A DNA stretch of 48,305 nucleotides, from contig NZ_CADIJW010000046.1 in assembly GCF_902859745.1 (NCBI RefSeq), positions 1 through 48,305 on the forward strand, given 5' to 3'. The notes under the pieces are model-generated. The model was not told the DNA's origin, did no database searches, and worked only from the letters and a program-made list of their open reading frames with translations. The translations under genes were made by a program, and so were the position numbers. Source of the stretch: Achromobacter dolens. Its GTDB lineage: Bacteria; Pseudomonadota; Gammaproteobacteria; Burkholderiales; Burkholderiaceae_B. This document shows, piece after piece, positions 37,552 through 41,517 of this stretch. Position 1 is the first letter of the stretch, and each line of letters begins with the position of its first letter.

Positions 37552-37586
37552 GGAGGCGACGGCCGGCGCGGCCGCGAAAACGACGA

Positions 37587-37608
37587 GGGCCCGATCATGA
37601 CCGGGCCC
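37587..37608 (-). terminator. Terminator downstream of the map gene
   Basis: GGGCCCG (37587-37593) pairs with CGGGCCC (37602-37608) round an 8-base loop containing TCATGA. On the minus strand it is followed after a short gap by TTTT, so it fits the end of the ParD-like/map transcript. The T run is short. Confidence 0.6.
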
Positions 37609-37652
37609 CGTGGGCGTCGCACTCCGTTAATTGCCGTCGCCGGCCGGCGGCG

Positions 37653-38444
37653 TCAGGGAATCGGCGGGTAGTCGCCGAAGCCGTCCGGCCAGGACGTCAG
37701 CACCTCGTAGCCGGTGTCGGTGACGACCACCATGTGTTCCCACTGGGCCGACAGCGAGCGGTCCTTGGTGACCACGGTCCAGCCGTCAGGCAACTGCTTG
37801 GTCTGCGGCTTGCCGGCGTTGATCATGGGTTCGATGGTGAACATCATGCCGGGCTGCAGCACCAGGCCCTCGCCGGGGCGGCCATAGTGCAGCACCTGCG
37901 GTTCGTCGTGGTAGATCTGGCCGATGCCGTGGCCACAGTATTCGCGCACGATGCTGAAGTGCTCGCGGTGCGCGACGGTCTGGATGGCGTGGCCGATGTC
38001 GCCCAGCGTGGCGCCCGGCTTGACTGCCATGATGCCGGCGCGCATGGCCTCGTAGGTCGTGTTCACCAGGCGGCGCGCCAGCGGGCTCGGCTGGCCGACA
38101 AAGTACATGCGGCTGGTGTCGCCGAACCAGCCGTCCTTGATGACGGCCACGTCGATGTTGAGGATGTCGCCGTTCTTGAGCACCTTGGCCGACGGGATGC
38201 CGTGGCAGATTACGTGGTTGGCCGACGCGCAGATGGTCTTGGGAAAGCCGTGGTAGCCGACGTTGGCCGGGATGGCCTTCTGCACGTTGACGATGTAGTC
38301 GTGGCAGATGCGGTCGAGCTCGTCGGTGGTGACGCCGGGCCGCACGTGCTCGGCGATCATGTGCAGCACTTCCGCCGCCAGGGCGCCGGCGCGCCGGGCC
38401 ATGGCGATGTCGGCGGCGGATTTGATGGAGACCTTGCGCGCCAT
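37653..38444 (-). CDS. map: Type I methionine aminopeptidase, coupled to a ParD-like gene
   Basis: A 263-residue cytoplasmic metallopeptidase that removes initiator Met from new proteins. All five metal ligands are intact: D98, D109, H172 (CGHGIG), E205 (FTIEPM) and E236 (AQWEHMVV), with the substrate His H81 in ASANHVICHGIPS. Length is standard for type Ia. The ATG directly follows the stop codon of the upstream small ORF without spacing, so translation depends on it. The chromosomal housekeeping map normally sits next to rpsB; this copy's location and coupling suggest a regulated second copy. This is inferred from context. Confidence 0.93.
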   Translation of the reverse strand: MARKVSIKSAADIAMARRAGALAAEVLHMIAEHVRPGVTTDELDRICHDYIVNVQKAIPANVGYHGFPKTICASANHVICHGIPSAKVLKNGDILNIDVAVIKDGWFGDTSRMYFVGQPSPLARRLVNTTYEAMRAGIMAVKPGATLGDIGHAIQTVAHREHFSIVREYCGHGIGQIYHDEPQVLHYGRPGEGLVLQPGMMFTIEPMINAGKPQTKQLPDGWTVVTKDRSLSAQWEHMVVVTDTGYEVLTSWPDGFGDYPPIP

Positions 38445-38690
38445 TTACGCGGCCTCCTGCTGGCCGGCGGTTGCCTGTCCGTGGGACAGGGCGGCGATGC
38501 TGAAGCCCTCGGCCTGCTCGATGCGGATCAGCAACTGGCAGATGTCGGCGTGGCGCAGCTCGGGGTAGAGCTCGGACAGCATGCCGATGCGCATCCAGTG
38601 TTCGGCCTGCGAGTTGATCGAGCGGCTCAGCGCGCTGCTGGCCACGCGCAGATTCTCGTGCATCTGCTCGGAAATCTTGACGATGCCCAT
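38445..38690 (-). CDS. ParD-like small protein (putative ribbon-helix-helix antitoxin family)
   Basis: An 81-residue protein. The N-terminal GIVKISEQMHENLRVASSALSRSINSQAEHWMRIGML resembles a ribbon-helix-helix DNA-binding unit as in ParD antitoxins and the ParD-like family (PF11903). The C-terminal tail is Ala/Gln-rich and probably unstructured. Its TAA stop is followed at once by the map ATG. No ParE toxin gene is near; the only partner is the aminopeptidase. A perfect 10-bp inverted repeat lies directly upstream and is a likely autoregulatory operator. Function as antitoxin is not shown; a simple repressor of its own operon is equally possible. Confidence 0.8.
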   Translation of the reverse strand: MGIVKISEQMHENLRVASSALSRSINSQAEHWMRIGMLSELYPELRHADICQLLIRIEQAEGFSIAALSHGQATAGQQEAA

Positions 38691-38697
38691 GGTGAGT

Positions 38698-38724
38698 GTT
38701 CCATATATGGTTTGTATATGGAAC
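38698..38724 (-). promoter_or_regulatory. Strong inverted-repeat operator before the ParD-like/map operon
   Basis: GTTCCATATA-N7-TATATGGAAC is a perfect inverted repeat with 10-bp arms; one arm overlaps the internal palindrome CCATATATGG (38701-38710). It ends eight bases before the ParD-like start codon, covering the GGAA that would serve as ribosome site. On the minus strand, TTGCGT then 18 bases then TAACAT is a plausible promoter just upstream. A DNA operator and an RNA hairpin hiding the ribosome site are both possible. Confidence 0.75.
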
Positions 38725-38779
38725 GTATGTTATCCCACCGTCGGGACCGGACGCAAACCGCCGCGGGGCGCACCCGGCG

Positions 38780-39940
38780 TCAGGCGCGCCCCTGGGCGGG
38801 GGCCTTTTCCAGCAGGTCCATGGCGTCCAATTGACGGTAGCGCGCCGGATAGATCGAGCGCGCGTAGTCCTCGCACGGCGTGCCCTGGGTGGCGATGGCC
38901 ATCACCACGAATTCGGCAAAGTCCTCGGGCGGACCGGCCTTGGCGTAGTCCGACGGGAAATTGCCGTCGGATCGGGCGGCGGCGCCCCAGGCCTTCATGT
39001 CGACGCGGGCGTTGTTGGCGTAGCTGTGGGCCAGTTCGTGCAGCACGGCGTGATCGATCATGGCCTGTTCGCCCGACATGCTGTAGAGCGTGATGCGCGA
39101 AAACATGGTCTCGCCCACCGTGTGCGTCTCGCGTGTCGGGTCGGCCCAGGGCGGGCCCTTCACCACTTGCGCGTTGAGGCGCGTGATGCGGTCTTCCAGC
39201 GCCATCCCCTTGGCCAGGCGGATCTGCAGATCGCGCCCTTGCAGCATCGCCTTGGGGGCGATGCCCAGGCTCTTGGCGACCTGTTCCGGTTGCGGCTGCG
39301 GTTCCTCGGTCAGGCGCTCGGTGAATTCCTGCGGCCGGCGCTGCATCAGGTCGCCGGTCCAGAGGGGATCGCGCGGTTCCAGCACCACCGGCACGCGCTG
39401 TCCGGCGGGCCAGGCTTCGTACATGACGCACTTGTCGTCCCCCGCGCGCGCCAGGTTGGCGGGTGGCTGGTAGGCCGACGGCCCGGTCAGCTTCACCGGA
39501 ACCCGTTTGGCGTCGAACATGGCCTCGGTGAGCTTGAGCGTGTCCTGCACCTGGGCGCATTTCACCGGCGCGTCCTGCGCCGCGATGGGTTCGATCGCGG
39601 CCAGCGCCGCCGGCGCGCCGGCCTGCAGAGCCTGGGGCGCGTCGTTCACGCCCGCGCCGCCGCCATCACCGCCGCCATGTTCGAGCTGGTAGAACTGCTG
39701 GCTGGCGATCAGGGTGGCGCCGCAGGAGGTCTTCATGCCCTCCAGCGCGGTGCGGCGGTCGGAACTGACGCTCTGCACGCCCTCGACGATGGTGTGCTGG
39801 CCGGGGCACTTGGGGCAGGTGACGCGGTCGCCGACGCGGGCCATGGGCCGGCCGAAGATCTGTACGGATTCATCCCCCGTCACCACCACGCCGCCGTGCG
39901 AGGTGCGGTCACCCTTGCGTATTACGGATCGCTGCGCCAT
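38780..39940 (-). CDS. PAAR-domain T6SS effector with C-terminal HExxH metallopeptidase-like domain
   Basis: A 386-residue protein. Residues 1-83 form a PAAR-type spike-tip domain (KGDRTSHGGVVVTG, RPMARVGDRVTCPKCPGQHTIVEG). A Gly-rich hinge (90-98) leads to a middle region and a C-terminal zincin-like domain: HELAH at 301-305, and a downstream EDFAEFV (E343 as likely third ligand), a pattern similar to lethal-factor-like zinc proteases. PAAR proteins sharpen the VgrG spike and carry effectors through T6SS. Here the enzyme is in the same polypeptide, a specialised effector. It is downstream of the repeat protein and near tssA. Target protein and compartment are unknown; the next gene downstream does not look like an immunity protein. 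Confidence 0.85.
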   Translation of the reverse strand: MAQRSVIRKGDRTSHGGVVVTGDESVQIFGRPMARVGDRVTCPKCPGQHTIVEGVQSVSSDRRTALEGMKTSCGATLIASQQFYQLEHGGGDGGGAGVNDAPQALQAGAPAALAAIEPIAAQDAPVKCAQVQDTLKLTEAMFDAKRVPVKLTGPSAYQPPANLARAGDDKCVMYEAWPAGQRVPVVLEPRDPLWTGDLMQRRPQEFTERLTEEPQPQPEQVAKSLGIAPKAMLQGRDLQIRLAKGMALEDRITRLNAQVVKGPPWADPTRETHTVGETMFSRITLYSMSGEQAMIDHAVLHELAHSYANNARVDMKAWGAAARSDGNFPSDYAKAGPPEDFAEFVVMAIATQGTPCEDYARSIYPARYRQLDAMDLLEKAPAQGRA

Positions 39941-39976: not shown

Positions 39977-40228
39977 TTACAGATAGGTGCCGTCCGGCGC
40001 CATGCGCGGGGTGCCCACGACGAAGGTGCCGTCGGGCGCCATGCGCACCGGGCCGCCGCCGCCAAGGTAGCGGCCATCGGGCGCGCGCTGGGGCGTGCCC
40101 GCGACGTACGTGCCGTCCGGCGCGCGGGTGATGGGCCCACCGTCGCCGACGTAAGTGCCATCGGGGCAGCGTCGCGGCGTGCCGTTGATGAAGCGGCCGT
40201 TGGGCATCATGTGGAATGACTTGTTCAT
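39977..40228 (-). CDS. Small PDGTY-repeat protein encoded with the PAAR effector
   Basis: An 83-residue soluble protein made almost wholly of about six 13-15 residue repeats with core PDGTYVxG(T/G)P, alternating TP and GGP endings. There is no signal peptide, membrane helix or cysteine-rich site except one Cys in the first repeat. The start at 40228 has GGAAG 6 bases upstream. It lies 36 bases before the PAAR effector gene on the same strand, so they are probably co-transcribed. The regular, beta-turn-rich repeats suggest a small solenoid or beta-sheet adaptor. I do not recognise a named family; chaperone, adaptor or immunity roles are all open. Confidence 0.75.
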   Translation of the reverse strand: MNKSFHMMPNGRFINGTPRRCPDGTYVGDGGPITRAPDGTYVAGTPQRAPDGRYLGGGGPVRMAPDGTFVVGTPRMAPDGTYL

Positions 40229-40309
40229 CGCGACTTCCTGGGTTTGGAGAGCTTGCATGATAGCGATGGTCCCTGATGCGTTTTGTAATAGGGCGTGTCA
40301 TGTTCCAAC

Positions 40310-40322
40310 GTAACGCGGTTAC
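40310..40322. promoter_or_regulatory. Inverted repeat in the divergent tssA/repeat-protein promoter region
   Basis: GTAAC-GCG-GTTAC is a perfect inverted repeat in a comparatively AT-rich gap (40229-40404). Longer, imperfect arms AGCGATGGTCCC (40262-40273) and GGGATCATCGCT (40329-40340) flank it. A T6SS regulator site is possible. Confidence 0.4.
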
Positions 40323-40404
40323 AGATATGGGATCATCGCTGCTTTCGCCGCCGGGCCATGCGCCGCTTGCGCATGGCTCGCCACCCGCAACGACACAAGA
40401 CACT

Positions 40405-41517
40405 ATGAGCGATATCGACGCACTGCTGCAGCCCATTCCGGGCGAGGCGCCTTGTGGCGCCGACATGGTCTTTTCCGCCGAATTCGACGCCATCCGCGAG
40501 GCCCGCCGCCAGGATGACCCGCACCTGGACCAGGGCGACTGGGTCATCGACATCAAAGAAGCCGACTGGCCGCAGGTGATCCGCATCTGCACCGAGGTGC
40601 TGACCCAGCGCAGCAAGGATGTGCGGGTGGCCGCCTGGCTGGCCGAGGCCTGGGCCAAGACGCGCGGCTTCGCCGGCCTGCGCGACGGCTTCCTGCTGGT
40701 GGACGGGCTGTGCCGGCGCTATTGGGATGGCCTGCATCCGGTGCCGGACGAGGGCGACGTGCAGCAGCGCGTGGGCAACCTGGCGTGGTTGTTGTCGCGT
40801 TCGCAGCAACTGGTGCGCGAACTTCCCTTGACGCAGTCCGAGGGAGGGCGCTTCGGCGCGGTGCTGTGGGACAGCGCCTCGCAACTGGCCAACGCCATCA
40901 AGCGTTCGCCGCAGAACGCCGCCGACATGTCGCGTGGCAAAGTCACCCTGGAGCAGTTCGACGCCGCGCGCCGCGACACGCCGCCGGCGTTCTACGCCGA
41001 GCTGGAAAGCCAATTGCAGAGCTGCTTCGGCGCGGTCGACGTGCTGGAATCGACGTTGACCGAGCGTCTGGGCGACGAAGGCCCGGCCTTCACGCCGGTG
41101 CGCACCGCGCTGAAGGACGTGACCGAGCTGGTGCATCGTTTCGCCCGCGAGGCCGGCCTGCTGGTGCGCGCCGACCTGGCGCCGGCGCCGTCCGCTCAGG
41201 CCGCGCCGTCCACCGGCGCGCCCATTACCCGCATGGAGCCCACCTTGACCGCTGCCGACCTTCCGCCCACGGCCTCCACGGCCACGCGCGGCCCGCTGCA
41301 AACGCGCGACCAGGCCCTGGCGCAACTGCGCGAAGTGGCCGAGTTCTTCCGCCGCACCGAGCCGCACAGTCCCGTGGCCTATCTGGCCGACAAGGCCGCA
41401 AGCTGGGGCGAGATGTCGCTGCACCTGTGGCTGCGCACCGTGGTCAAGAACGGCGAGGCGCTCTCGGGCCTGGAAGAGCTGCTGGGCGTGCCCAAGCCGC
41501 CCGAGAACAACGGCTGA
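40405..41517 (+). CDS. tssA: T6SS protein TssA (ImpA family)
   Basis: A 370-residue cytoplasmic T6SS component. The conserved ImpA N-terminal domain covers residues 1-130 (DALLQPIPGEAPCGADMVFSAEFDAI, CRRYWDGLHPVPDE). The C-terminal part has the typical RRTEPHSPVAYLADKAASWGEMSLHLWLR. TssA caps and guides sheath/tube assembly at the baseplate. The start at 40405 fits family N-termini (MSDIDALLQPIPG); ribosome site weak. It is divergent from the repeat protein/PAAR effector pair and converges on the OmpA/TagF/TssM operon. Confidence 0.9.
   Translation: MSDIDALLQPIPGEAPCGADMVFSAEFDAIREARRQDDPHLDQGDWVIDIKEADWPQVIRICTEVLTQRSKDVRVAAWLAEAWAKTRGFAGLRDGFLLVDGLCRRYWDGLHPVPDEGDVQQRVGNLAWLLSRSQQLVRELPLTQSEGGRFGAVLWDSASQLANAIKRSPQNAADMSRGKVTLEQFDAARRDTPPAFYAELESQLQSCFGAVDVLESTLTERLGDEGPAFTPVRTALKDVTELVHRFAREAGLLVRADLAPAPSAQAAPSTGAPITRMEPTLTAADLPPTASTATRGPLQTRDQALAQLREVAEFFRRTEPHSPVAYLADKAASWGEMSLHLWLRTVVKNGEALSGLEELLGVPKPPENNG

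Follow-up and report, generated by a model that had tools for sequence, protein, structure and literature searches.

Organization of the locus

The window, by which we mean the whole 48,305-nucleotide stretch of Achromobacter dolens DNA analysed here, carries a small ParD-like gene and a gene for a type I methionine aminopeptidase (MetAP, gene map) side by side on the reverse strand. The pair and the elements around it are as follows.

37586-37609, reverse strand: intrinsic-terminator-like hairpin after map, 10 pairs and a T-rich tail (consensus scan)
37653-38444, reverse strand: map, type I MetAP of 263 aa, Map-a lineage by tree, TIGR00500 match
38445-38690, reverse strand: ParD-like gene, 81 aa, beginning MGIVKISEQMHENLR, match to the PF11903 (ParD_like) profile
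38453-38458, reverse strand: AGGAGG, ribosome-binding-like, inside the 3' end of the ParD-like gene and 8 nt before the map ATG (read from the sequence)
38698-38724, no strand: perfect inverted repeat, GTTCCATATA-7-TATATGGAAC, whose 10-bp arms are 7 nt apart, lying 7 nt before the ParD-like ATG
38704-38729, no strand: candidate operator, two overlapping 15-bp TATAYGNNNCRTATA palindromes 11 bp apart, an arrangement also seen in relatives

The junction of the two genes reads GCGTAAATGG, so that the TAA of the ParD-like gene abuts the ATG of map with zero gap. The original prediction started from three observations: this junction, a type I MetAP with a complete set of catalytic residues and, upstream, an inverted repeat with perfect 10-bp arms. 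All three are confirmed, the first by the PF11903 match and the junction itself, the second by a TIGR00500 score of 317 bits (cut-off 171) and the presence of all seven active-site and metal positions examined, and the third by arms that are 100% complementary. The further claim of a self-contained regulated unit is supported by the layout, which is that of a type II toxin-antitoxin system: an antitoxin-family gene, a partner directly downstream and a palindromic site upstream. The AGGAGG within the ParD-like gene suggests translational coupling to map. Between 37500 and 38900, a consensus scan returned 2 terminator-like sites, against 0.6 in shuffles, the second lying inside map; a consensus scan of the same interval found no sigma-70-like promoter.

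The downstream neighbour of the pair is an MFS transporter gene and the upstream neighbour a PAAR-domain protein gene. Among 17 relatives, the MFS gene is downstream in 16 and the PAAR gene stands beside the pair in three (L020, L197 and L198). The PAAR-domain protein (38780-39940, reverse strand, PF05488) is T6SS-effector-like, with a HELAH motif read from the sequence. Beyond it lie a reverse-strand gene for a 93-aa protein of APDGTYV-like repeats that has no NCBIfam family match (39977-40258) and the T6SS protein TssA (40276-41517, forward strand, TIGR03363), so that the pair borders a T6SS region. Defence cargo and phage cargo were both rejected, with no PADLOC family match and no match in phage records at E ≤ 0.01; the matches in PHROGs were to families of unknown function only (small protein, E 1.7e-7; Map, E 1.3e-19).

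Accessory status and conservation of the pair

The genome of the window gave six M24-family matches. A second map next to rpsB, anticipated by the original prediction, is present (L004 on G000:C37) and is 61.7% identical to the window Map. The window copy is therefore accessory, and the alternative that it is the only map in the genome is ruled out. At least two maps (E ≤ 1e-30) were found in 30 of 30 paired genomes, a set of our own choosing, and in these the paired map is an extra copy. One genome, G116, has four map-type genes, two of which (L185 and L186) fall outside the paired groups described below; L186 is very divergent, with an end branch of 1.01.

Of 200 genomes of the home GTDB family, 79 had PF11903 matches, 87 in all; 86 of these matches were read, the remaining one lying below the cut-off. 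Two branches can be separated by sequence, and the window belongs to branch 1 (MG[IL]V..., RS[IV]NxQA). Directly downstream of the branch-1 gene lies a map in 50 of 54 loci, the window and one apparently frameshifted copy (L012) included. The four loci without a full map are L070, which by eye appears to keep only a truncated map start, and L030, L031 and L034. These last three, which prompted the idea of a metal response, come from two genera and adjoin metal-type ABC transporter genes: an ABC-3 permease gene lies beside the L031 gene (Pfam) and the L030 gene (by eye), and a ZnuA-type metal-binding protein is encoded beside L034.

Phylum-wide, a branch-1 match of at least 88.9 bits occurs in 48 of 398 genomes, counting that of the window, and the next match scores 46.1 bits. 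In all 48 a map lies downstream, overlapping or within 90 nt. In the best 80 of at least 591 named GTDB loci, map is immediately downstream in 79, with only a partial map match in L241. These locus sets overlap in part (L234 and G049, for example, are the same contig). The predicted adjacency of ParD-like gene and map is borne out by all three counts, which also rule out a chance local neighbourhood. Further, the two genes overlap by 4-23 nt in many relatives.

The pairing was also examined in the other direction, starting from two of the partner lineages, Map-b and Map-a. With a Map-b profile, the same 398 genomes yielded 34 genes at or above 447 bits, well separated from the next score of 357 bits, and 33 of the 34 lie in branch-1 genomes. 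The exception is G478, where an intact Map-b gene of 259 aa stands without any ParD-like gene in 3.7 kb, even with all search filters off. The 15 best matches to a Map-a profile (at least 489.9 bits) are all in branch-1 genomes; the scores show no clear gap here, and the next two matches, in G448 and G521:C3 (483.6 bits), stand without a neighbouring ParD-like gene. The reciprocal count thus comes to 33 Map-b plus 15 Map-a, or 48, in searches that scored up to 6 map and 14 small-protein candidates per genome and may include misses.

Branch 2 comprises 32 loci of the home family, none with an adjacent map match, although one (L077) stops at a contig end. Five of the branch-2 partners were tested with Pfam and proved to be ParE-like toxins (three) or zeta toxins (two). 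Because toxins are found at the same place in these sister loci, the MetAP of branch 1 occupies the toxin slot, and to this extent the original prediction, which put the aminopeptidase in the toxin position, stands.

Partner lineages and transfer

In a tree of 124 map sequences (91 paired, 22 rpsB-linked and 11 other, after removal of near-copies and rows below 200 aa), the paired maps fall into three groups apart from one another. Map-b comprises 56 rows (support 100/100) and Map-a 34, the window's among them (support 96/86); the third is a single Sulfitobacter map, whose neighbours in the tree are unpaired maps of classes other than the window's. A single origin of the partner MetAPs was rejected by an AU test in which all paired maps were held together (p 1.6e-6). 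The tree would be explained either by the small gene having joined MetAPs more than once or by the MetAP having been swapped in place, and both scenarios would imply that MetAP activity matters. On the ParD-like tree, built by a quick method from few columns and with the Map-b row L044 sorted with Map-a by motif, the three Map lineages require 3 label changes (minimum 2) versus 29 in shuffles. The small proteins appear to follow nearly the same grouping as their partner maps, as expected of co-inherited genes.

Such co-inheritance, together with the gene overlaps, which suggest a fixed stoichiometry, could also point to control at the protein level, with the small protein inhibiting, chaperoning or targeting the MetAP in addition to, or in place of, repressing transcription. 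We consider this unlikely, as the C-terminal half of the small protein is poorly conserved, the 80 non-redundant branch-1 proteins vary in length between 67 and 99 aa and three different Map lineages serve as partners; a link at the DNA level fits at least as well.

The pair also occurs on plasmids. Of 16 plasmid regions that we chose to open, 15 contain it, the exception being an Aureimonas plasmid on which a site resembling the motif is present and map is absent within 3 kb. Carriers include a 24-kb Psychrobacter plasmid and a Klebsiella IncFII/IncR plasmid. On the latter (L047, 4001-4977), the pair and its flanks lie between IS26 copies, and the stretch is 98.5% identical over 2,984 bp to L062, from the window's genus; in this one case transfer looks recent. 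Three of the 15 plasmid pairs are divergent, all of them in Sulfitobacter (L046, L194 and L196), where the pair adjoins genes for a methyltransferase, rpsU and a 5-formyltetrahydrofolate cyclo-ligase.

Active site and methionine pocket

The window Map has H81, D98, D109, H172, H179, E205 and E236, which we take to be the five metal ligands and two active-site histidines. None of the seven is altered in any of the 109 paired maps examined, a set from which the L012 map (below 200 aa) was left out. The paired lineages differ at positions 62, 70 and 177 (E. coli numbering), which presumably belong to the methionine or S1 pocket. Map-b carries Y62Q, C70N and F177M in 65 of 65 sequences. Map-a keeps Y62 and carries F177Y throughout (43/43 for each), with C70L in 10 of 43. 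Unpaired rpsB-linked maps keep Y62 and C70 (22/22) and F177 (21/22, the remaining one having Y), and 3 of the 11 other unpaired maps have Y177.

An asparagine-type subtype of type 1 MetAP is reportedly due to Bala et al. in 2019. As far as the available part of a review goes, proteobacteria have a type 1 subtype in which Asn replaces Cys, and no operon link to a ParD-like gene is mentioned there (PMC11773813). Map-b, with Asn at the E. coli Cys70 position in 65 of 65 partners, matches the description at the level of sequence; the window Map, with Cys72 at this position, does not belong to the subtype.

The pocket changes raise the possibility that the paired MetAP has an altered specificity, acting on other N-terminal residues or resisting an inhibitor, so that its value would lie in the pocket rather than in dose. 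The lineage-wide substitutions in Map-b and Map-a, their rarity in rpsB-linked maps and the known Asn-for-Cys subtype speak for such a role. The window enzyme, however, retains Y62 and C70, and F177Y does not explain its pairing, since Y177 also occurs in four unpaired maps (1 of 22 rpsB-linked and 3 of 11 other). We regard altered specificity as a tentative proposal, one compatible with the autoregulated operon proposed below.

The upstream palindromes

With up to 3 mismatches allowed, the inverted repeat at 38698-38724 is matched nowhere else in the window, and no match appeared in 100 dinucleotide shuffles. Of 17 sequences of the window's genus (window included; L027, which belongs to another genus, excluded), 4 have perfect 10-bp arms, and the remaining 13 have arms that match at 8-9 of 10 positions. 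In two sequences of this genus, L021 and L029, both outer arms are altered in concert (GATCC/GGATC).

The palindrome pair is conserved more deeply than this repeat, which is best seen as the local face of a larger predicted operator. The two window palindromes, at 38704-38718 and 38715-38729, have one mismatch each; two matches at up to 2 mismatches, anywhere in the window, were reached in 4 of 100 dinucleotide shuffles. In relatives, TATAYGNNNCRTATA palindromes lie upstream of the small gene, often as two with a common half-site. Among 143 non-redundant upstream regions, drawn from 193, a single palindrome with at most one mismatch occurs in 126 versus 0.2 expected from mononucleotide shuffles, and a pair of palindromes at a distance of 10-12 bp, with no more than 4 mismatches in the two together, occurs in 128 versus 0.05 expected (98 with no more than 2 in the two together); the consensus was derived from the same sequences, so these counts show conservation and are not an independent prediction. 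When 10-12 bp is allowed, 140 of the 143 regions fit best with a spacing of 11 bp. Five regions differ from the single palindrome at 4 or more positions: in L010, L011 and L014 a stretch resembling the motif is found farther upstream, at a distance of some 90 nt or more, and in L030 and L031 the motif is absent upstream of the branch-1 gene. In Sulfitobacter L046, where the genes diverge, the motif lies in the intergenic region common to both. Many branch-2 loci have a different upstream motif, ctacaattgtggta-like by eye.

We rejected a regulon extending past the operon, as there is no second good site of the long motif form in 6.29 Mb. At up to 2 mismatches this long pattern occurs once, as does a reversed control, so that the search shows only the absence of a second good site of that form.

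The small ParD-like protein

The 81-aa protein matches PF11903 over residues 1-67 with 102.9 bits (E 9e-30), against a curated cut-off of 23, and is the only match in its own genome at E ≤ 0.001. An AlphaFold monomer model (mean pLDDT 71.7) shows an extended segment at residues 1-7 and helices at 8-21, 25-41 and 47-59, and would be compatible with a ribbon-helix-helix fold. A Foldseek search with this monomer model of moderate confidence found no PDB match at E ≤ 0.001, and no PDB relative was found by profile.

In the 80 non-redundant branch-1 proteins, all columns conserved at 90% or above fall within residues 1-43, with G2, H11, R15, R23, S24, N26, Q28, W32, G36 and E40 at 100%. The branch-2 set consists of 14 non-redundant proteins drawn from 19, with 11 zeta-type and two partial proteins excluded beforehand; in it, NPDLP, E57 and F65 reach 100%, and these have no branch-1 counterpart. 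We read the branch-1 pattern as that of a protein which may have kept its DNA-binding half and lost a toxin-binding tail.

This bears directly on whether the pair is a genuine type II toxin-antitoxin module, with MetAP as the toxin and the ParD-like protein as its antidote. Membership of an antitoxin family, abutting or overlapping genes behind a palindromic site, an identical gene order in the sister branch with its ParE-like and zeta toxins, residence on plasmids such as those of Psychrobacter and Klebsiella, and a small gene accompanying Map-b in 33 of 34 cases all fit such a module. Even so, the MetAP retains the catalytic residues of an ordinary essential enzyme, no branch-1 column past residue 43 reaches 90%, against 100% for NPDLP, E57 and F65 in branch 2, and G478 keeps an intact Map-b without the small gene, although its promoter may also be gone. 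On these three grounds we consider it improbable that the MetAP acts as a toxin. The original prediction had left the choice between a MetAP in the toxin position and a dose-controlled second Map; the slot is right, the toxin role is unlikely, and the second Map fits better and is the reading we favour over a toxin-antitoxin pair.

Discussion

We propose that the pair is probably a two-gene autoregulated operon for an accessory MetAP, with the ParD-like protein as autorepressor. The small protein would bind as dimers to the two adjacent palindromes just upstream of its own start codon and, when bound, would repress both its own gene and map. Lifting of this repression would add a second, catalytically competent type I MetAP to the rpsB-linked housekeeping enzyme. 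Dimerization, DNA binding and repression are steps that we infer.

It is tempting to speculate further on what might lift repression. MetAP is expected to remove Met1 before Gly, and Gly2 is invariant in branch 1: it is found in 194 of 194 entries (114 plus 80, some genomes counted twice) with several Gly codons in use. Residue 2 of the partner maps, whose start codons are less sure, varies widely. The DNA-contacting strand of the regulator is predicted to begin right at Gly2. Because of this invariance, we put forward, as a rather doubtful idea, that the operon could be a homeostatic sensor of N-terminal methionine excision. DNA binding by the regulator would depend on removal of Met1, such that when MetAP capacity falls, through an inhibitor or metal shortage, Met would stay on the regulator, the operon would be derepressed and the spare enzyme would be induced. 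If this is true, MetAP would report its own activity through its repressor.

The pair resembles the ParE-like type II pairs of PF11903 and PF15781 in antitoxin family, gene order and overlapping or abutting genes. It differs from them in that a MetAP replaces the toxin, in its upstream motif and in the unconserved C-terminal tail. Another comparison is with yflG of Bacillus subtilis and its regulator YvoA, which is presumably not a ParD-like protein. B. subtilis has two functional MetAPs, map and yflG, and yflG, weakly repressed by YvoA, is likewise an additional MetAP, expressed at a low level and modulated by a repressor, which can stand in for the first when expressed from a multi-copy plasmid; unlike the present case, it belongs to the Firmicutes, and the available part of the article does not describe YvoA as part of a yflG operon (PMC1266368).

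A literature search, with subscription journals mostly outside its coverage, found no published description of a ParD-like/map pair and no experiment on its toxicity or DNA binding. In the parts of the articles that were available, one fosmid carries map and a separate RelBE system (PMC3948609), a plasmid map is listed under 'virulence factors' with no partner (PMC6796979) and ParD-like is used as a term for an immunity candidate (PMC13129497).

The annotation 'ParD-like antitoxin' in branch 1 may not mark toxin-antitoxin systems. The pair also offers a genomic setting for asparagine-type MetAPs. In a broader context, N-terminal methionine excision is usually regarded as constitutive housekeeping. 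The occurrence of a palindrome-fronted, partly plasmid-borne MetAP unit in 48 of 398 sampled Pseudomonadota genomes, built on an antitoxin-family protein and combined with separate MetAP lineages, suggests that methionine excision may be regulated in many bacteria.
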